A model generated the notes under the pieces. That model ran no database searches and was not told the DNA's origin. It worked only from the letters and a program-made list of their open reading frames with translations. From Agrobacterium tumefaciens (GTDB lineage Bacteria; Pseudomonadota; Alphaproteobacteria; Rhizobiales; Rhizobiaceae): a stretch of DNA of 64,000 bases. Within the stretch, counting starts at the first letter, position 1. Each line of letters begins with the position of its first letter. Shown here in pieces: positions 28,703 through 37,775 of the stretch. The position numbers and the translations under genes were made by a program. Location of the stretch: contig CP048469.1 in the NCBI GenBank assembly GCA_025559845.1, positions 1,488,001 through 1,552,000 on the forward strand. The letters are read 5' to 3'.

Positions 28703-30298
28703 ATGCTGTCCTTAAACGTCTTTGGCCGCTTTCAGATCGTTGATCAGTTTGGCACCGACTACAGCCCGAAAGGGCTGAAGGCGCGCGGCGTTTTCGCACT
28801 CCTGGCCATGTCGCAGGGCTATTCCCGCAACCGCGTCTGGTTGCAGGACAAGTTGTGGAGCGACCGCGATTCCAAGAAGGGATCGGACAGCCTGCGCCAG
28901 ACGCTGGTGGAAATCCGCCGCACGCTCGGTCCCTACGAGGCCGCCCTCAAGACCGACCGTGAAAAGATCGCGCTCGACCCCGCGCAGTTTACCGTCACCT
29001 ACAACCGGCCGGTCAGCGGTGAAGACTGGAACGACGAGCACAGCGCCTTTGCCGATCTCGATATTGCCGATGGCGAATTCGAGGACTGGATCAGAAATCT
29101 GCGCATGTCCTTTGCGGCGGAAACGACACCGCAAAATATACAACCTGTCAGGGCCGTGCACACGCCAACGCCGCCCAAACCGGCGATCTTTTTCCAGTGC
29201 CAGTCCGACAATCAGCCGGTGAGCGAACTGGTCATCACGCGGCTGATGACGCTGGCAACGACGTCGCTGCTCGACCGCGACGATTTCCAGATCTTCCCAC
29301 AGACAACGCTGTTCGAAACCGGTGGCCGTGCCCCCGTCTCCGGCCTTTCCATTTCTGTGCGCGCCGTGACGATGGGCCTTGTCACCCACGTGGCCTTCGC
29401 CATCAATCATGCAGAAACGGGCCAGCTCTACTGGTCACGCACCGTTCCCATTCTCCTCGCCTCGGAAGAAGCCTTCGTTCAGGAGTGCGGCACGCTGGTG
29501 CAGGCCGTTCTTTCGACGTTCCGTGAGCGGAAGGACCAGCTTTCGATTTCCAACTCGGCCGCCATGCTGGCCGGTCATGCCCGCGATCTGATTTTCCGCT
29601 TCGACCGCACCAGCCTCAAGGATGCCGACACGCATCTGCGTTACGCCTATGATCGCGAACCGCGCCCGCAATATCTGGCCTGGCGCGCATTCCTGCGCAA
29701 CATGGCGCAGTTCCAGCACCGCACCAGCGCCTTTCTGGAGGACAGCATCAGCTCGTCAGAACTGGTGCAGGAAGCACTGCGTCAGGAAGGCGGCAGCGCC
29801 AGCATTCTGGGCATCGGCGCTCACCTCGAATATCTGGGTGGCGGTTCGAGCCGTGGATCACTCAGAATGGCCGAACGCGCCGTCAGCCTCGATCCGCTCA
29901 ACGCCGTCAACATCGCCATCCTCTCCAACACCGAACTGGTGCTCGACAAGCTGGAAGACAGCCGCCGCTCGGCCACGACGGCCCTGTCACTGACCGGCGG
30001 CGGTGAACATCGCGCTCTGGTGGAATTTTTCTGCTGCATGTCGGCCTCGGCACTCGGCGATTATCCGACCGCCATCGGCCATGCCGAGGTGGCGTTGATG
30101 CTGCGCCCGGCTTTCCGTGCGCCGCTTCGTTATCTCGTGGCGCTTTACAAGCAGATGGGCATGATTCCCGAGATGGAAAACGCCATTTTGCAACTGCGCC
30201 AGCTCGAGCCCGACTTCACGCCACAGCGCTTCCTTGACGACGATTACCCCGTCACGACCATGCGACGCATCCGACTTATCGAAACTATCGCAAGTTAA
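28703..30298 (+). CDS. SARP/BTAD-type transcriptional regulator
   Basis: A 531-residue regulator. Residues 1-95 form an OmpR-like winged helix of the AfsR/DnrI type (MLSLNVFGRFQIVDQFGTDY, SPKGLKARGVFALLAM, NRVWLQDKLWSDRDSKKGSD, SLRQTLVEIRRTLG). The middle is variable, and the C-terminal half (about 300-520) is helical with TPR-like repeats. This architecture lacks the ATPase of large AfsR proteins. It is an activator by family; its target is perhaps the cytochrome gene immediately upstream. DNA-binding by a one-component regulator with TPR ligand site is inferred. Confidence 0.82.
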   Translation: MLSLNVFGRFQIVDQFGTDYSPKGLKARGVFALLAMSQGYSRNRVWLQDKLWSDRDSKKGSDSLRQTLVEIRRTLGPYEAALKTDREKIALDPAQFTVTYNRPVSGEDWNDEHSAFADLDIADGEFEDWIRNLRMSFAAETTPQNIQPVRAVHTPTPPKPAIFFQCQSDNQPVSELVITRLMTLATTSLLDRDDFQIFPQTTLFETGGRAPVSGLSISVRAVTMGLVTHVAFAINHAETGQLYWSRTVPILLASEEAFVQECGTLVQAVLSTFRERKDQLSISNSAAMLAGHARDLIFRFDRTSLKDADTHLRYAYDREPRPQYLAWRAFLRNMAQFQHRTSAFLEDSISSSELVQEALRQEGGSASILGIGAHLEYLGGGSSRGSLRMAERAVSLDPLNAVNIAILSNTELVLDKLEDSRRSATTALSLTGGGEHRALVEFFCCMSASALGDYPTAIGHAEVALMLRPAFRAPLRYLVALYKQMGMIPEMENAILQLRQLEPDFTPQRFLDDDYPVTTMRRIRLIETIAS

Positions 30299-30391
30299 GT
30301 GCTTCAATTCACACGCAGCTCACGGTCGATTCACGCTGGAATCACGATAGCGGTCTAGTTGTACCTAATTGCAAAAAATCAGGGGCCGATC

Positions 30392-30640
30392 ATGAGTGAT
30401 ACCAAAATTGTTTCAGATCATCTGAATGCCGCTTTGCTTGCCACCAAATCCGACAGGCCGTTTCTGGCCTATCTGATCCAGATGGCGCTGATTGAAGCCA
30501 AAACCGTACCCGAACAGGTGCACCAGAAGAACGAAGTCAACGAACTGAAAGACTACCTGTTCCCCTATGGCAGCACCGAGGAATTCCTGTCCAAGCCGCT
30601 GCAGTTCCGTGCACGCAGCCGCGTCGCTGGCTTCCTTTGA
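30392..30640 (+). CDS. Small protein of unknown function
   Basis: An 82-residue protein starting MSDTKIVSDHLNAALLATKS after CAGGGGC. Mostly helical with a hydrophobic centre (PFLAYLIQMALIEA) but not membrane-like, followed by a charged stretch and a C-terminal Arg-rich end. No known family was recognised. It follows the SARP gene by 94 bases and is closed by hairpins at 30674 and 30695; the short upstream gap has an A+T-rich possible promoter. Confidence 0.55.
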   Translation: MSDTKIVSDHLNAALLATKSDRPFLAYLIQMALIEAKTVPEQVHQKNEVNELKDYLFPYGSTEEFLSKPLQFRARSRVAGFL

Positions 30641-30883
30641 GACCATCACTACCCGCGGATCATGAGATTTTGTCCTGACTGCTCACGCAGTCAGGCCGCA
30701 TTGCGTTTCGCTGCGGATTTTCCTTCGCAGGCCATGGCACTGCCCGCACTGGCACAATCCCACCGACCATAGCGACACTATGAATTCCGGGCCGCGCCAG
30801 CATTGTGCCGCCAGCATCACGCGCCTGTTCAGCGCTGAGGGCGAAAGCCCGTCATTCCCTCATGCCGAAACGAACGACGTGAT
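30641..30883. terminator. Hairpin-containing gap before the repressor gene
   Basis: A perfect nine-base stem CCTGACTGC/GCAGTCAGG with loop TCAC lies at 30674-30695. It is followed by CCGC ... GCGG (30695-30714), then ATTTTCC. These are probable termination or processing structures after the small gene at 30392, and may also receive transcripts from the convergent repressor gene. The remainder holds no supported gene. Confidence 0.45.
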
Positions 30884-31504
30884 TTACGGGATCACCGCAA
30901 TGATGGGCGATGCCGCCAGAAGAACGACCTCTTCCGACTTGCCGGCCGGTGAGACAAGACTTGCCTCTCCCGTTTTGCGGGCCCGCTCCACCTTTGCCAG
31001 AACCTGCCTGCCATCCCTCAGACGGCAGATCGACAGCGCGCCGATTGCGGACGCATCGACCATGTCAGTCTGGCTGAACAACAGCACCGCATCGTCCCAG
31101 ATCGCCAGCGCACCTGATGACGCGCGGATCTGCGCCGCGACGACCTGCCTGTTGTAATGACCGCCAACGGCAAGCTGCGCCTTCTCAACGACGGAGGCCG
31201 GCAAAGGTTTGGGCTCCGGCAACATCTCGATCACGCCACTTTCGTCGATCGTCGCAGCCAGAACGATGCGCGCCTGCGGCCCATCCGCCTCGGTCGTGAT
31301 ACCGGCATGTTTCATCACATCCGCCAGCGAAACACCCAGAAAACCGGCAATCTGCGTGGCCTCGTCCATCCGCATCCTGCGATGGCCGGAAAATGTACGG
31401 GAAACGGCGGAGGGATCGGAATCCATGTGTCGGGCCAGTGCACGAAGCGATTTGCCCGTATCTTTCAACCGGGCATGAAACCAGTCACCATCAATAGCCG
31501 CCAT
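30884..31504 (-). CDS. Phage CI-like repressor with degenerate S24 domain
   Basis: A 206-residue protein starting MAAIDGDWFHARLKDTGKSL at ATG 31504 after AGGGGA. The N-terminal HTH_XRE is LRALARHMDSDPSAVSRTFS, with recognition helix DPSAVSRTF. The C-terminal half keeps the S24/LexA topology (VLAKVER, in the position of the catalytic Lys, and an SPIIAVIP end), but the GDSM serine motif is missing: the region reads SSGALAIWDDAVLLFSQ. RecA-triggered self-cleavage is therefore unlikely. The gene's own upstream region carries a 17-bp palindrome that recurs before two other genes of the element. Confidence 0.75.
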   Translation of the reverse strand: MAAIDGDWFHARLKDTGKSLRALARHMDSDPSAVSRTFSGHRRMRMDEATQIAGFLGVSLADVMKHAGITTEADGPQARIVLAATIDESGVIEMLPEPKPLPASVVEKAQLAVGGHYNRQVVAAQIRASSGALAIWDDAVLLFSQTDMVDASAIGALSICRLRDGRQVLAKVERARKTGEASLVSPAGKSEEVVLLAASPIIAVIP

Positions 31505-31540
31505 AAAAATCCCCTGGCACATCCGTATTGTTGTATATTT

Positions 31541-31557
31541 GTTGCAAAATTCACAAC
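31541..31557. promoter_or_regulatory. Operator 1 of the repressor regulon
   Basis: GTTGCAAAATTCACAAC is a 17-bp palindrome (arms GTTG/CAAC, also Y-R matches inside) 37 bases upstream of the repressor start. It has the same arms and spacing as 32221-32237 and 33507-33523, so the repressor probably controls its own gene. A further TTGTTG element adjoins it at 31528-31533. Confidence 0.65.
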
Positions 31558-31674
31558 GATATGCAAGCGCCGCGCAAAATTGAATGAATTAGCAGCACGA
31601 GGTCTCGGGTTGAGTTGGTGCGAATTTTCCAACAATATTGAGACTCAGAGTTGGAAATATGAGGATCGCCCGCA

Positions 31675-32091
31675 ATGCCGGTAAAGTACCTTCTATTTTC
31701 GATGGCCATTTTGTTTTTCGCATGTCTGGCCATCAAGACCGGGCTTGCAAATGATGAGACCGAGACGCTGCGCGTCCGGCTTGCGGTGATATTCGATAAC
31801 GCCGACCCGGTTGCGGGAGACATGACGTGCAGCCCTAACAAGACCTGTCTTCTGCTGACGCACGAAAAGCCCGAACTTAAGCTGGAAATGACGGCCAGCC
31901 GGAAGCAAGGTCATCCGGTTGAATTGCATGTAATCTGCGAAGGCAAGTGTTCATTTGCCAACGAACGGTCACAGACCATACTCGGAAATGCTCGCAAATT
32001 TGAAGTCTTCAAAGGCGAGGCTGGCGTCGAAATCCCGCTGGTTCATAAACCGCGCGAGAGAATTGCCACCGTGTTGCTGGCCTTTGAGTAG
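31675..32091 (+). CDS. Secreted protein of unknown function
   Basis: A 138-residue protein with an N-terminal hydrophobic stretch (YLLFSMAILFFACLAIKTGL) and probable cleavage near LANDE. The mature part has four cysteines (TCSPNKTC and VICEGKC), likely two disulfides, and beta-rich sequence. No family was recognised. It diverges from the repressor gene and shares the region with operator 1. GAGGA lies upstream of the ATG. It might be a lysogenic-conversion or accessory gene of the element. Confidence 0.6.
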   Translation: MPVKYLLFSMAILFFACLAIKTGLANDETETLRVRLAVIFDNADPVAGDMTCSPNKTCLLLTHEKPELKLEMTASRKQGHPVELHVICEGKCSFANERSQTILGNARKFEVFKGEAGVEIPLVHKPRERIATVLLAFE

Positions 32092-32215
32092 CTCCGGTCA
32101 TCGCAGCATCGGGGACACATTCGCCAGATAGCAGTCCTTCGACCTCTGTATCGGCAGTGCGCACCCGCGCTGCAGCCGTCCGCACGCATTTTCTTTGATC
32201 TCATGTTGCGCACTG

Positions 32216-32244
32216 TTGACGTTGCGATTATCACAACATATTGT
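32216..32244 (+). promoter_or_regulatory. Promoter with operator 2 in its spacer
   Basis: TTGACG (32216-32221) and TATTGT (32239-32244) are 17 bases apart. The palindrome GTTGCGATTATCACAAC (32221-32237) fills the spacer, so bound repressor would block RNA polymerase. More GTTG elements at 32205 and 32215 and a second partial palindrome at 32243-32257 may be auxiliary sites. Confidence 0.65.
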
Positions 32245-32312
32245 TGACACACACAACGAATGGTTCGACCGTCCCTGTAATGATGAACCTGAACATGCGC
32301 CGGAGGGCTGAC

Positions 32313-32522
32313 ATGCGCGACAAGCCGCTTTCCATGCTGGAGCAGTCGGAACTGATCGAAGAGCTGATTGCTCGCTGCACGATGCGCAACGGCGCGTTTT
32401 CGCAGGAAACCGTTCTCGTCATCAACGGGCATACCGTGGATGACCTGGCGCATCTGGCAAGCCGGCTTCGGCGCATGTCGCATCATCAGACCAGGATCGA
32501 GAAAATGGTGATGGGCAAATGA
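32313..32522 (+). CDS. Small helical protein, first gene after the repressed promoter
   Basis: A 69-residue protein, MRDKPLSMLEQSELIEELIA to the end RIEKMVMGK, with GGAGGG six bases before the ATG at 32313. It is predicted to be helical and basic; the short form and the lack of cysteines suggest a DNA-binding or protein-binding accessory. No family was recognised. It is directly downstream of operator 2, in the position of an early phage gene. Upstream ATGs in frame have poor ribosome sites. Confidence 0.55.
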   Translation: MRDKPLSMLEQSELIEELIARCTMRNGAFSQETVLVINGHTVDDLAHLASRLRRMSHHQTRIEKMVMGK

Positions 32523-32628
32523 GACATGCCCATTTCCACTCCGCGCCCCGGTCACAAGCAATCGCGCCTTACGCTGCCATTGGCTGAGCGAAGGCGTCCC
32601 CGCAGCAACAGATTATGGAAGGCAAGCC

Positions 32629-33390
32629 ATGACCATCAGAGCACAACACCCCTCGCATGCCGCCCTCTCAGCACCGGAAACCACGATCCCGAACTGCAAC
32701 TTTCCGTTTTTCGGCGACCAGTTGAGCCGGGAGCAGGCCCGCGACCTGTTTTTCTATGACAACGGCCGCCTGCTGTGGCGCGAAGGCTTACGCCGCCGGC
32801 GCCCCGATGCAGGGTCGGAATATTATCGCAAGAGCACCAGACAGGACCCGATCTGGGTCATTCTGCTCGGCGCGCGTGGTGAGCAGCGTTTCTACATGCG
32901 TCGCTATCTGGTCTGGAACTGGCATTTCGGTGAAACGGATCAGATTCTCGTCCCGCGTGATGGCGACCACCTGAATGACCGGATCGGCAATATCGGTTTT
33001 GCCGGGCGCCTGGCGAAACCGGAAATAAAGTCGACAGTGCCTGAAAGACCGCTGTTTGAAAGCCGCTACGGCGTCAACTGCCCGTGCTGCGACGCGCCGG
33101 TGCAAACCATGTCGGCCGATATTGCCACGCAGGTCTATGGCATTACCGAACAGCAATCGCGTATCCTGCGGGCCATCTGGAGCGGCAAGGGAAAACCCGT
33201 CCAGATGGAGCGCGTCTTCACCGAAATGTATCACGACGACCCCGAAGGCGGCCCCACGCAGGTCAAGATGTATGCGGCCTTCAAGGTGGCCCTGTCGCAT
33301 CTGCGCAGCAAACTGAAAGGCTCCGGAATTTCGATTGTGACGGTTGGCTACCGTCAGGGCTACCGGCTGATCCTGCAGGACAAGGTGTGA
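32629..33390 (+). CDS. HNH-like/winged-helix fusion protein
   Basis: A 253-residue protein. Residues 30-120 (DLFFYDNGRLLWREG, then YYRKSTRQDPIWVIL, YMRRYLVWNWHFGE and DHLNDRIGNIGFAG) resemble the NG-x-L-x-W...H...D-x-x-N-x-R-x-x-N pattern of HNH homing-type nucleases or AP2-like DNA-binding proteins; the catalytic HNH His pair is not clearly complete. Then a CPCC pair near residue 149 and a C-terminal OmpR-type winged helix (ILRAIWSGKGKPVQMERVFT, ALSHLRSKLK, VGYRQGYRLI). This combination suggests a DNA-binding regulator. The ATG at 32629 follows GGAAGG. Confidence 0.55.
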   Translation: MTIRAQHPSHAALSAPETTIPNCNFPFFGDQLSREQARDLFFYDNGRLLWREGLRRRRPDAGSEYYRKSTRQDPIWVILLGARGEQRFYMRRYLVWNWHFGETDQILVPRDGDHLNDRIGNIGFAGRLAKPEIKSTVPERPLFESRYGVNCPCCDAPVQTMSADIATQVYGITEQQSRILRAIWSGKGKPVQMERVFTEMYHDDPEGGPTQVKMYAAFKVALSHLRSKLKGSGISIVTVGYRQGYRLILQDKV

Positions 33391-33506
33391 TTACCGACCG
33401 GGATCAACGGGCAACAGACCTTGCCGTCAGCAAGGAGAACGTGGAGGGAAATCCCGTCGCAAGCCCCTGAGAGTTTCAAAGACGACGCTCGTTTTGCGTC
33501 ACCAAT

Positions 33507-33523
33507 GTTGCGTTAATCACAAC
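33507..33523. promoter_or_regulatory. Operator 3 before the primase gene
   Basis: GTTGCGTTAATCACAAC, third copy of the 17-bp palindrome, 24 bases upstream of the primase ATG. Compared with operator 2 the arms are identical and three centre bases differ. It should link replication-gene expression to the repressor. Confidence 0.6.
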
Positions 33524-33546
33524 AATCAAGCAAGAGCAGCAACGTA

Positions 33547-36033
33547 ATGTCCTCTGATGTCGAACGGTTACGCCGTGATGTTTCCTTATCCGCGACGGCA
33601 GAGAGCTACGGTTTCAGGCTGGAGCGCAACGGTCACGAGTTCCAGACCTGCTGCCCGTTCCATGCCGAAAACACGCCCTCCTTCACCATTTTCATGGGCC
33701 AGGATGGCGTGCAGCGTTTCCACTGCTTCGGCTGCGGCGAAAAGGGGGATGTCCTCGATTTCGTCCAGAAGATCAAAGGCGTCGCCCTACCCGAAGCGGT
33801 TCGTATCCTCGGCGGTGCGGATACCACCCGTGCCAATGCCAGGCTGCAAAAGCGCGATGCACCCGACCGCTATGACGGCATCACCCCGATAGACCCGCCG
33901 TTGCAGGCGCTGCATGCCGGACGCCGCGTGCAGCTTTATAACCCCAAGAGAAAGGGCCAGCGCAGCGAATGGGGCACCTTCGCGCCCGCAATGGTATTTC
34001 CCTATCGCCGCACCGATGGCTCCCTGCTGGGTTACGTGCTGCGCCATGATCTGCCCGGAGGCGCCAAGGAAACGCCGATGGTGATGTTTGTGCGGTTGCC
34101 GGATGGCAGGCAGACATGGTGCCGTTTCCCCTTCCCCAAGCCCCGGCCGCTCTACGGCCTGCATGAACTCGGCGATGCCCGTGAGGTCTATGTCGTCGAA
34201 GGTGAAAAATGCCGCGACAGGCTGCACAGGGCGACCGGCCTCACCGTCGTCTCATGGGCAGGCGGCACCCAGGGCGTCAAACACACCGACTGGTCGCCAC
34301 TGGCCGGTCGCAAAGTCACCATCTGGCCGGATTTCGATGCGCCGGGCATGGCAACAGCCACGGAAATTACAACCGCTCTGACCGGGCTTGGCGTAGAAGC
34401 GCGCCATGTCGGACTGACCGAGATTGACGCAGCCTCCGAGATCGAAAGCTACGGTTTCGAAAACTGGCAGACAGGCGATTTTCCGAAAAAGGGTTGGGAC
34501 TGTGCCGATGCGGTGGAGGCGGGCTGGGACCGCGATCAGCTCATCCGCTTCCTCAACACCACCATGCGGCCCATGACCCCGCTTGCCTCCCAACCTCAGG
34601 AAAAATCACCCTCCAGAACGGTGCCTCTCGGTGCTGATGGTATCGAGGCCATGCCCGACATGTTTCCAGGCCAGATGTATGGATCGGAAGTCTGGCTGGC
34701 GCGGGAATTTCACCACGAGATGAAGAAGGCCTGTGGCGGCCAGATCGTGCGCGCCGAGGGAAAATTCTGGGCTTTTGGCCCAACCGCCTGGCGGCCGATT
34801 TCCGACCAGAAGATCAGGCTTGCCATGCACGCGCTGGACGCCATCGGCATTGGCGCGAAAGAAACGCCGCTCAAGCTCGGCAAACGCATGATTGATGGCA
34901 TCATCAACGAGCTGGGAACACGCGTCTCGGACGACGACTTCTTCAAAAGCCCTGTCGTTGGCATGAATGTGAAGAACTGCACCATCACCATCGACGACAA
35001 GGGAAAGGTGGATTGCCGTGCCCATGATCCGCAGGATCGCTTTCGCTTCACCATCAACGCCGAATATCACCTGCACACCGATAGCCATCCACCCGAGGGT
35101 TCTTTGCTGCACAGACTGCTTTACGGTGCCTTTCGCCATGATGCCGATGCCGCCGACAAGATCCACCTGATCTCCGAAATGCTGGGGGCAGCCGCCTTCG
35201 GCCTGGCGACGCGTGTAAAGCAGCCGAAGGCCTTCATCCTGCTCGGCGAAACCGCCAATAACGGCAAATCGACCATTGCCGCGCTGTTTCGCGCACTTTT
35301 GCCTGAAGGCGCCGTATCCTCGATCTCCCCGGCTTTCTTCAACGATGAAAAGCGCATCATCAACCTCGCAGGCAAGGCCGCCAACGTCGCAGACGAGCTG
35401 AGCGCTGCGGCTATTGCCGGAGAAGAATTCAAGGCGGCAGTGACCGGAAACCCGATTGAAGGCCGCAGTCTCTACAAGGATGTGGTCAGTTTTTCGCCAC
35501 GCGCCCTGCACTGCTTCACCACCAACACCCTGCCGCGCTTCAACGGCGGTATCGATCGCGGTCTGCGGCGACGGCTTGTGGTCATGCAGTTCAACCGGTC
35601 GATCCCTGACAGTGAGGTCATCACCGATATTGCCGAACGCATTCAGGCAGAAGAGCTTGATCTGCTGCTCGGCTTTGCCGTTGCCGGTGCAATCCGCCTG
35701 AAAAAGAAGGGCAGCTACACCATTCCGGAAAGCTCGAAGGAAGCACTCAATGCCTGGCTGCTGCTCGACCCGCTCAATGAGTGGTTCGACATCCGCGTCG
35801 TGCCCGTCACGCACGAACCGCGTGGCGGCTGGCTGCGCACCAGCAAGCTTTTCGAAAACTTCAGGAACTGGGCCGTGGAACAGGGTTACAAGGAAAGCTT
35901 CCTGCCCCCGGTCAACACCTTCTCCCAGCGGCTGAAATCCATGCCGAATGTGCAGTTGAAACGTCTGAGTTCAGGCATGGTCGCGCAAGGCGTCACCATT
36001 GAAGACGTCACCCAATATGGTGATGTGTTCTGA
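33547..36033 (+). CDS. Phage/plasmid-type primase-helicase
   Basis: An 828-residue multidomain protein. Residues 1-75 hold a DnaG-like zinc finger (CCPFHAENTPSFTI, HCFGCGEKGDVLDF). A Toprim-like part follows near residues 210-290 (VYVVEGEKCRDRL, then WPDFDAPGMA). The C-terminal D5/SF3-type helicase has Walker A GETANNGKST near residue 560, Walker B ANVADELS, a conserved TTNTLPRF sensor and the GLRRRL arginine finger. Such proteins prime and unwind phage, satellite or plasmid DNA. Complete by length, in contrast to the lack of integrase and capsid genes nearby. Confidence 0.88.
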   Translation: MSSDVERLRRDVSLSATAESYGFRLERNGHEFQTCCPFHAENTPSFTIFMGQDGVQRFHCFGCGEKGDVLDFVQKIKGVALPEAVRILGGADTTRANARLQKRDAPDRYDGITPIDPPLQALHAGRRVQLYNPKRKGQRSEWGTFAPAMVFPYRRTDGSLLGYVLRHDLPGGAKETPMVMFVRLPDGRQTWCRFPFPKPRPLYGLHELGDAREVYVVEGEKCRDRLHRATGLTVVSWAGGTQGVKHTDWSPLAGRKVTIWPDFDAPGMATATEITTALTGLGVEARHVGLTEIDAASEIESYGFENWQTGDFPKKGWDCADAVEAGWDRDQLIRFLNTTMRPMTPLASQPQEKSPSRTVPLGADGIEAMPDMFPGQMYGSEVWLAREFHHEMKKACGGQIVRAEGKFWAFGPTAWRPISDQKIRLAMHALDAIGIGAKETPLKLGKRMIDGIINELGTRVSDDDFFKSPVVGMNVKNCTITIDDKGKVDCRAHDPQDRFRFTINAEYHLHTDSHPPEGSLLHRLLYGAFRHDADAADKIHLISEMLGAAAFGLATRVKQPKAFILLGETANNGKSTIAALFRALLPEGAVSSISPAFFNDEKRIINLAGKAANVADELSAAAIAGEEFKAAVTGNPIEGRSLYKDVVSFSPRALHCFTTNTLPRFNGGIDRGLRRRLVVMQFNRSIPDSEVITDIAERIQAEELDLLLGFAVAGAIRLKKKGSYTIPESSKEALNAWLLLDPLNEWFDIRVVPVTHEPRGGWLRTSKLFENFRNWAVEQGYKESFLPPVNTFSQRLKSMPNVQLKRLSSGMVAQGVTIEDVTQYGDVF

Positions 36034-36127
36034 AGCTTCACCCCGCCGGGATCGCGCCCCCGTGCCATGCGGATAACCATTGGCGAGGGAAACTTGCCGC
36101 CTCATCATCCATTGAGGACATCGCGAC

Positions 36128-36928
36128 ATGGCAAAACAGAATTTCGAGGCATGCCTCGCCTTCACGCTTGCGGCCGAGGGCGGGCTTTCGAAGGACCGCA
36201 GGGACCCCGGCAACTGGACGGGCGGCAAGGTCGGCCTTGGTGAGTTCAAGGGCACGAAACACGGCATTTCCGCCGCAGCCTTTCCCACGCTGGATATCGC
36301 CAATCTGACCGTCAAGGATGTCGCCCCGATCTACAGGACACGGTACTGGGATGCGGTGCGTGGTGACGAACTGCCGCCAGGCTTCGATCTCGCCACCTGG
36401 GATTACGGCGTCAATTCCGGGCCGGCACGCGCCATCCGCGAGGCGCAGGCGGTGATCGGCGCCCCCGTCGACGGCAAGGCCGGTCCCGTCACCCTGCGCA
36501 AGGCCTCCTCGGCAGGCGTCAAGGAAATTCAGGCGCTCTGCGCCCGTCGCCTCAGCTTCATGCGCGGCCTGAAAATCTGGAGCATCAACAAAAATGGCTG
36601 GACGGCCCGTGTCGCAAAGGTCGAGGCAAAGGGTGTCGCCATGTATCTCGCCGCAACGGGATCGGCATCCTCAGCCAGAAAGGCGCTTGCCGAAGAAAGC
36701 CAGAAGGCAGCCCACAGTGCAGAGAAGAACGGCAATCAGGCGGCCCTCGTCGGCACGGGTGGCACGGTGTCCGTCTCGACGGGTATTTCTTCCTGGACGG
36801 GCTTTTGTCTCGGAATGCTGGTCGTGCTGGCAGCAATGTCCGTCATTTTCGCACTCTACAGGAAGAACAGGCAGCGCGCCGAAGCCTATCGCGCCGAAGT
36901 GACCGCGCTTGCCGACGCGGGCGCCTGA
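36128..36928 (+). CDS. GH108 endolysin with C-terminal membrane segment
   Basis: A 266-residue muramidase. Residues 1-90 match glycosyl hydrolase 108 (LAFTLAAEGGLSKDRRDPGN, with the catalytic Glu in AEGG), and 95-170 the peptidoglycan-binding type 3 domain (DYGVNSGPARAIREAQAVIG). There is no signal peptide. A C-terminal hydrophobic span (GFCLGMLVVLAAMSVIFALY, about 222-241) is followed by a charged tail, so the enzyme is likely membrane-tethered. It lies after the primase gene and is closed by a strong terminator. Release may depend on a holin. Confidence 0.88.
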   Translation: MAKQNFEACLAFTLAAEGGLSKDRRDPGNWTGGKVGLGEFKGTKHGISAAAFPTLDIANLTVKDVAPIYRTRYWDAVRGDELPPGFDLATWDYGVNSGPARAIREAQAVIGAPVDGKAGPVTLRKASSAGVKEIQALCARRLSFMRGLKIWSINKNGWTARVAKVEAKGVAMYLAATGSASSARKALAEESQKAAHSAEKNGNQAALVGTGGTVSVSTGISSWTGFCLGMLVVLAAMSVIFALYRKNRQRAEAYRAEVTALADAGA

Positions 36929-36955
36929 CAGGGGTTGAGAGGTTGCCAAACGCAG

Positions 36956-36979
36956 GCCCGCAGGACTGCGGGCTTTTTT
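36956..36979 (+). terminator. Rho-independent terminator of the phage-like element
   Basis: GCCCGCA (36956-36962) pairs with TGCGGGC (36967-36973) around GGAC, followed by TTTTTT. It lies 28 bases after the endolysin stop and marks the right end of the element before the conserved FAH gene. Confidence 0.9.
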
Positions 36980-37085
36980 CGTTTCCGGAAGCGCAAGAGG
37001 ACCGCCAGCGCGGTTTTTGAACTGGTAATTGCCCCGGAATTGCGGGAAAAGACTGGCACCTGAAGTCGATGCAAGGAAGCTTTTC

Positions 37086-37775
37086 ATGGCCGCAACTGTC
37101 ATTCCCACACCGCAACCGGTTCTTCTCCCCGTCGAAGGCACCAGCGAGACGTTTCCGGTACGGCGCGTTTATTGTGTTGGCCGCAATTACGCCGACCACG
37201 CCATTGAAATGGGACATGATCCGTCGCGCGAGCCGCCCTTCTACTTCCAGAAAAATCCGGACAACCTGCTGCCATCAGGTCGCGATTTCCCCTACCCGTC
37301 GCTGTCGTCCAACGTGCATTACGAAGTCGAATGCGTGGTCGTTCTGAAAAGCGGCGGTTCGGATATTCCGGCCAGTGAAGCACTGGATCACGTCTGGGGT
37401 TATGCCGTCGGCATCGACATGACGCGCCGCGACCTGCAGGACGGCCTGAAGAAGATGGGCCGTTCCTGGGAAGGCGCCAAGGCATTCGAATTTTCCGCGC
37501 CGGTCTCGCCCGTCGTGCCCGCGTCGAAAATCGGCCATCCCTCCACCGGCGCCATCTGGCTTGATGTCAACGGCACGCGCAAGCAGACCGGCGATCTCTC
37601 GCAGATGATCTGGAAAGTACCGGAAGTGATTGCCGAACTGTCCAAGCTGTTCACGCTTGCCGCCGGCGACGTCATCATGACCGGCACACCCGCAGGCGTT
37701 GGCCCCATCGTACGCGGCGATCTGATCGAATGCGGCGTCGACGGTGTCGGCACGCTGTCCGTCAAGGTCGCGTAA
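37086..37775 (+). CDS. Fumarylacetoacetate hydrolase family protein
   Basis: A 229-residue FAH-type hydrolase. The metal and active-site motifs are YCVGRNYADHAIEMG, YEVECVVVLKSG (metal Glu residues) and GTPAGVGPI. Members hydrolyse fumarylpyruvate or acylpyruvates, or decarboxylate oxaloacetate (FAHD1/YcgM group). The start is ATG 37086 after AAGGAAGC; the upstream frame is leader. It is 21 bases before the gamma-carbonic anhydrase gene, and the pair is transcribed together. Confidence 0.9.
   Translation: MAATVIPTPQPVLLPVEGTSETFPVRRVYCVGRNYADHAIEMGHDPSREPPFYFQKNPDNLLPSGRDFPYPSLSSNVHYEVECVVVLKSGGSDIPASEALDHVWGYAVGIDMTRRDLQDGLKKMGRSWEGAKAFEFSAPVSPVVPASKIGHPSTGAIWLDVNGTRKQTGDLSQMIWKVPEVIAELSKLFTLAAGDVIMTGTPAGVGPIVRGDLIECGVDGVGTLSVKVA

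Follow-up and report, generated by a model that had tools for sequence, protein, structure and literature searches.

A candidate virion-less prophage module with a conserved repressor–operator switch in Agrobacterium tumefaciens

The 64,000-nucleotide stretch of Agrobacterium tumefaciens contig CP048469.1 analyzed here (the window) carries a compact cassette of repressor, small early gene, winged-helix gene, primase and lysozyme (Table I). The sequence evidence gives good support for reading this element as a virion-less prophage module whose switch is intact, since no homologue of the integrase of related phages was found in 13 chromosomal loci, the operators are kept, the cassettes form one clade and dN/dS is low. 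Its origin from a dusA-type temperate phage, together with the repressor–operator circuit, is very probable. For the full reading, in which a remnant of a dusA-type phage has kept its switch and confers a phage-related benefit, we estimate a probability of about 0.6. Intact genes and sites in the examined copies suggest that hosts still use the element.

Gene content

Table I. Features of the element and its right-hand flank, in window positions
Feature	Position	Strand	Remarks
CI-like repressor, 206 aa from conserved start	30884..31504	-	N-terminal XRE/HTH, C-terminal LexA/186-CI-like domain
Operator 1, GTTGCAAAATTCACAAC	31541..31557	.	Upstream of repressor; exact site in 10/11 loci
Insert, approximate ends	31556..32180	+	Between operators 1 and 2; aligned against L004
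Early promoter-like TTGACG-N17-TATTGT	32216..32244	+	TTGACG kept in 11/11 loci
Operator 2, GTTGCGATTATCACAAC	32221..32237	.	Spacer of early promoter; exact in 9/11 loci
Small early protein, 69 aa	32313..32522	+	Homologues in 9/13 clustered loci, also by tblastn
253-aa fusion: HNH-like domain, CPCC motif, OmpR-like winged helix	32629..33390	+	Weak library matches
Operator 3, GTTGCGTTAATCACAAC	33507..33523	.	23 bp before primase ATG; exact in 10/11 loci
DnaG-type primase fused to DUF5906 helicase-like part	33547..36033	+	CHC2 zinc ribbon, weak Toprim match
GH108 lysozyme	36128..36928	+	C-terminal hydrophobic stretch, transmembrane-like by eye
Intrinsic terminator, 9-pair stem and T run	36954..36975	+
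Right junction	37010..37015	.	Homology with cassette-free genus mates starts here in 12/18 FAA loci
FAA-hydrolase gene	37086-37775		Downstream of right junction

A first-pass annotation of this DNA had listed repressor, replication, HNH-like/winged-helix and endolysin genes and a strong terminator. The replication gene is a primase (CHC2 2.5e-20, DUF5906 2.1e-11), the endolysin belongs to the GH108 lysozymes (2.7e-17), and the terminator was found as described. Both parts of the HNH-like/winged-helix assignment drew matches, each of them weak (PHROG 0.0098; Pfam 0.0035); the HNH-like domain looks degenerate by eye, and the C-terminal part of the protein is conserved in cassettes and phages. 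Conserved start codons moved the starts of the repressor and the small gene to 31504 and 32313, respectively. Invariant across loci are the CHC2 Cys/His residues and GKST of the primase and Glu17 of the lysozyme, which we take to have functional roles.

Alignment with the same-species locus L004 places an insert between operators 1 and 2. It carries a 138-aa gene (31675-32091) that the first-pass annotation omitted, with a signal-peptide-like start as judged by eye. None of the other 12 cassette loci (L004-L015) showed this gene, L004 being without the insert, and distant homologues of its product (24–36% identity) occur in 14 of 38 other genus genomes. Operators 1 and 2 are accordingly spaced 680 bp apart in the window, compared with 134 in L004, 210 in L005 and 166–169 in those five Rhizobium-type loci whose copies of both operators are exact. 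Neither the small protein nor the 138-aa protein has a significant family match in Pfam or PHROG, nor the latter in NCBIfam.

Repressor

Identity as a repressor is borne out by an HTH match of 1.3e-4, just under the Pfam cut-off, and by matches to phage-repressor PHROGs. A first structural model from 12 alignment rows was poor (pLDDT 68) and was replaced by a later one, which predicts an HTH plus a LexA-like C-terminal fold. Structure matches were 7jvt, 2fjr/2fkd, 3k2z and 1jhe, at 11–16% identity; superposition is poor over the whole chain (7jvt RMSD 14–15) and about 3 per domain. The predicted likeness to phage 186 CI, lambda CI and LexA thus lies in the combination of HTH and C-terminal domain, whereas identity is low and the Ser/Lys positions vary. 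In an alignment of 60 rows, position 135 is Ser in 21 and position 136 in 26, and position 177 is Lys in 42 and Arg in 18. These positions, which we take to correspond to the LexA Ser and Lys, were matched by eye, and no conserved Ser–Lys self-cleavage dyad was found in this alignment. Because the positions vary, self-cleavage is unlikely; the 186 CI repressor is not known to be cleaved. Induction through RecA-driven repressor cleavage therefore seems unlikely, and other stress routes may operate.

Among named phages, the nearest repressors include the cI-like proteins of Bcep22-like podoviruses, Burkholderia phages of 61–63 kb (26.7–28.6% identity over 95–96%), with that of Pseudomonas phage Itty13 slightly nearer at 31.2%. 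Apart from JC1, the Burkholderia phages with near repressors are presumably Bcep22-like. JC1 itself is called Bcep22-like in the literature.

Operators and early promoter

Three copies of a 17-bp palindrome, GTTG-N9-CAAC, had been reported upstream of the repressor, the small gene and the primase. All three are present at those positions and are the sole exact matches in the 64 kb. Their number inside the window is merely mildly surprising, since 0.97 are expected and 6 of 100 shuffles reach three. A genome-wide search returned 90 sites, below the 147 of the reversed control, so the rarity of the bare pattern is no argument.

Conservation in related loci is a different matter. A comparison with relatives, set beforehand, found the palindromes present and conserved: between repressor start and primase ATG, 11 loci (the window, L004-L010 and L013-L015; L011 and L012, truncated at contig ends, were left out) contain 29 exact operator sites against 0.24 expected. 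Among all 256 possible 4-mer arms, GTTG gives these 29 and the runner-up eight; among gaps of 5–13, any gap besides nine yields 0–4. Eight of the 11 loci have all three operators exact. The four missing sites (operator 1 in L009, operator 2 in L015, operators 2 and 3 in L007) comprise three with one mismatch each and one, in L009, with a spacer one base longer. Operator 3, where exact, lies 21–25 bp before the primase ATG. On the strength of this conservation, the palindrome observation counts as real. Elsewhere in the genome the near-consensus GTTGYR-N6-RCAAC shows no excess (18/17 against 27/27 for the reversed control), and among the 35 places listed no three but those in the element fall inside a span of 2 kb.

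The early promoter described in the first-pass annotation, with the middle palindrome within its spacer, was also found. Operator 2 begins at the final base of the −35 and stops one base short of the −10. Promoter-like sites show no excess in the region (2 against 2.4 expected), and it is the retention of TTGACG in every locus that supports the promoter. The −10 following operator 2 reads TATTGT in the window, L004 and L005, CATAAT in seven loci and CATAAC in L013. Operator 1 would be suited to autoregulation of the repressor.

In L005 (Agrobacterium sp. AGB01), two further operators in a TTGACA-N17-TATTAT context lie beyond the repressor end, within L005:1772-2622. The same interval holds two small membrane-protein genes, one of which has a weak phage-holin match.

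Distribution of the cassette

A primase search returned 25 loci in genome contigs. Twelve (L004-L015) match all or nearly all of the primase, and in these the cassette is present as far as the contig reaches; L004 and L005 are, from contig coordinates, the loci of genomes G023 (same species) and G024. Long primase matches occur in 3 of 39 genus genomes, namely the own genome, G023 (97%) and G024 (78%), the others having short stretches only; of 394 genomes drawn evenly from the family, one, again the own, matches at E 1e-100. The cassette is therefore rare.

The other 13 loci (L016-L028) match the primase only up to residue 344–377, and no repressor, winged-helix or lysozyme homologue was found beside it. 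They were considered as members of the system and rejected: cassette neighbors are lacking, the 13 loci contain one operator-like site (L027), and the 12 orphan primases in the primase tree form two clades of their own. Such single phage-type primase genes, 673–969 aa for the 12 in the tree, occur once or twice in addition to the cassette in several Rhizobium-type genomes.

All ten Rhizobium-type cassettes (L006-L015) carry a 113-aa lipoprotein-like gene after the lysozyme (L006:9837-10178 and equivalents), duplicated in L011 and L012. It has no PHROG or NCBIfam match, and no copy was detected in the window, L004 or L005.

In comparisons with phage records, DNA similarity was confined to short segments, each some 1% of the query length and mostly falling on lysozyme or endolysin genes; of 258 phage records with a primase match, two cover 80%, at 23% identity. 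Plasmid records gave 150 primase matches, none covering 80%, and no repressor match. In the literature on dusA integrases, on rhizobial prophages and their operators, on domesticated prophages, on Bcep22-like repressors and stoperators, and on immunity from cryptic prophages, judged mostly by titles, no title describing the module or its operator was found; PMC6630229 and PMC10783043 were among the works compared.

Chromosomal location

In most genus mates examined, dusA adjoins the FAA-hydrolase gene. A long dusA match is present in 13 of 18 FAA loci; of the rest, L069 has a 23-aa piece of dusA and four have no match. Where homology does not begin at the junction given in Table I, it begins at 37081-37086, the start of the FAA-hydrolase gene (6 of 18). 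In the genome studied here, dusA (C1:1317090-1318079) and FAA (C1:1525086) are 207 kb apart, separated by C1:1318080-1525085, of which window positions 1-37085 form the right end. This stretch is probably a large dusA island, which fits the finding that the 20 kb left of the element have only scattered matches in four genus mates. A search of the dusA–FAA stretch for cassette genes, integrase, exonuclease and DEAD helicase found none outside the cassette. Immediately left of the element, 28703-30298 encodes a 531-aa protein without a Pfam match and with no match in 12 of 13 genus mates searched.

Integration at dusA is a recognized habit of prophages and islands, as Farrugia et al. 2015 (PMC4482086) describe, and PMC5537653 tabulates Sinorhizobium prophages that target DusA. 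Of the 10 Rhizobium-type cassette loci, 7 include dusA, and protein-level matches confirmed the DusA identity. Unlike dusA-integrated prophages, the cassettes show no homologue of such an integrase, and the cassette in the window borders FAA, at a distance from dusA; that of L005 is near rpe. G023 has a broken dusA-type integrase fragment (two stops) beside dusA. At dusA in G024 there is another prophage, with integrase, endolysin and tail-fiber matches; the 18 kb examined hold neither GTTG-N9-CAAC nor cassette or phage early genes. Inspection of window 30200-37200 for attachment repeats gave no convincing direct repeat around the element, and the window contains no tRNA target. A RecE-like exonuclease, sought as a sign of a resident helper in a search that had no positive control, was not found in G000 (the own genome), G023 or G024.

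The related phage group

Profiles of the repressor and the winged-helix protein led to a group of uncultivated IMG/VR phages (L101-L146) that have the gene order and operator motif of the cassettes. The repressor profile gave 21 viral-contig loci, 18 on contigs of 40–49 kb and three on shorter ones; the winged-helix profile gave 25, on contigs partly shared with the repressor set. As in the cassette, the order is repressor, small gene, winged helix, primase and lysozyme. The difference lies in what the phages add: 18 of 19 contigs (L101-L119) encode homologues of an exonuclease and a DEAD helicase, placed among these genes or next to them, L103 having neither. Among sampled proteins, L029 has a RecE-like exonuclease (exonuclease VIII), a DEAD helicase and an integrase (PHROGs, Pfam, NCBIfam), L137 has RecT, an endonuclease and SSB, and L142 one tail fiber; RecT, SSB and tail fiber set these phage contigs apart from the cassettes. 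In L102, L110 and L111 the integrase adjoins dusA. L103 encodes its primase in two separate reading frames, an arrangement shared by several other phage contigs.

The phages also share the operator, with 69 sites in 19 loci against 4.0 expected and base preferences at each position like those of the cassettes, for which 18 of the 29 sites were compared. GC-rich arms occur even more often in these loci (CGGC 90), with GTTG fourth among the 256; the evidence here is therefore the excess over expectation and not the rank.

Homologues of the group's integrase (at E 0.01), exonuclease and DEAD helicase were not found in 13 cassette loci, searched over about 6 kb to the left and right of the primase (a shorter stretch in L011 and L012) and over the whole window here. 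No virion genes were present among the window ORFs scanned, and six ORFs scanned gave no match to packaging or capsid-remodeling genes. The first-pass annotation had left the origin open between a satellite, a stripped prophage and a domesticated lysis module, and the finding of a parent phage group that matches the cassette in gene order and operator supports the second of these.

Single origin and selection

In the repressor tree, 11 cassettes form one clade (99/92, and 98% of bootstrap trees), with L101 as the nearest phage, followed by L137 and L117. Thirteen cassettes likewise form one clade in the lysozyme tree (99/94). The primase tree does not separate the cassettes from phages L117/L137, all of which meet in one unresolved fork. 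Members of the cassette clade are named Agrobacterium and Rhizobium. The cassettes were collected with the primase of the window, a sampling that favors close relatives and one clade. L103/L128 also shows no exonuclease or DEAD helicase homologue but falls outside the cassette clade. Reduction may therefore have occurred repeatedly, and L103 may represent a second, separate instance.

Reading frames are open in all loci for primase and lysozyme (13/13) and repressor (11/11). From six pairs per gene (NG86), dN/dS is 0.04–0.30 for the repressor, 0.125–0.226 for the primase and 0.12–0.36 for the lysozyme; the wide pairs, with dS of 1 or more, are near saturation. These three genes are under purifying selection. 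The case is less clear for the winged helix (0.09–0.57, the upper value from the window/L010 pair) and the small gene (0.23–0.90, with 0.90 from the closest pair, 69 codons at dS 0.02, and 0.43 from window/L005).

Proposed mechanism

The CI-like repressor would bind the conserved 17-bp operators (consensus GTTGYGATWATCRCAAC), which overlap the presumed promoter regions of repressor, early genes and primase, and would thereby shut off both itself and the phage genes. Should repression fail, the small protein, the winged-helix protein and the primase-helicase would be made, and then the membrane-anchored lysozyme. Because no integrase or virion genes are seen nearby, one would expect the locus to replicate and the cell to lyse, with no phage produced. 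The likeliest benefit to the host is phage-related and could take either of two forms. The repressor could recognize the operators of related phages and so confer homoimmunity, or an invading relative could titrate or antagonize the repressor and release the lysozyme, killing the infected cell. This proposal is tentative and somewhat doubtful, and homoimmunity alone needs neither primase nor lysozyme. The more specific form, a phage-sensing lysis circuit in which many operator copies or an antirepressor, brought in by related phages, free the three sites, turn on the primase-helicase and the membrane-anchored lysozyme, and so kill the cell before phage mature, is distinctly unlikely. The suggestion of a domesticated lysis module is plausible in view of low dN/dS and because two of the three trees unite the cassettes in a single clade, the lysis function being predicted from sequence.

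Alternative explanations

It is rather unlikely that the element is a cryptic prophage in decay, whose gene losses were accidental and which brings its host no benefit. The missing phage-integrase homologue, the rarity in the genus, the broken integrase fragment by dusA in same-species G023 and the higher dN/dS of the small gene and one winged-helix pair would all suit decay; against it stand the open frames of primase, lysozyme and repressor, their dN/dS of 0.04–0.36, the kept operators and a single clade that spans members named Agrobacterium and Rhizobium. A phage satellite with its own primase, borrowing capsids from helper phages, would account for a repressor and primase without virion genes, which is a satellite-like set, for three chromosomal contexts (dusA in 7/10 Rhizobium-type loci, FAA here, rpe nearby in L005), for an operator common to related phages and for another dusA prophage in G024, the genome of L005. 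However, the group integrase, the only integrase sought, has no homologue in 13 loci, the six ORFs gave no packaging or capsid-remodeling match, the G024 prophage lacks the operator and early genes in the 18 kb examined, and a lysozyme is unusual in a satellite. This makes a satellite improbable, and that option of the first-pass annotation lacks support.

Replication and lysis loci may sit apart from gene transfer agent genes, and lysozyme and primase without nearby virion genes could accordingly be a lysis or DNA-amplification accessory of a gene transfer agent, tailocin or similar system. The chance of this is slim, given that near-consensus operators show no excess elsewhere in the genome and that only 3 of 39 genus genomes have a long primase match. 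That the palindromes are sites of a host regulator, near phage genes by chance, is scarcely credible: the bare pattern does occur 90 times in the genome, but the sites accompany the repressor gene across chromosomal contexts and in phages.

Relation to known prophages and significance

As a virion-less remnant under purifying selection, the module resembles the grounded or domesticated prophages treated in PMC6379469 and PMC8987985. It differs from those described there in that the retained part would be an operator-controlled replication and lysis switch, present in several species. The findings suggest that a phage repressor–operator switch, with replication and lysis genes, can outlive its virus in several species of soil bacteria. 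A defined operator is now available for uncultivated phages of rhizobia and their relatives and, with one repressor and three sites, the element offers a clean case for asking what cryptic prophages do for their hosts.
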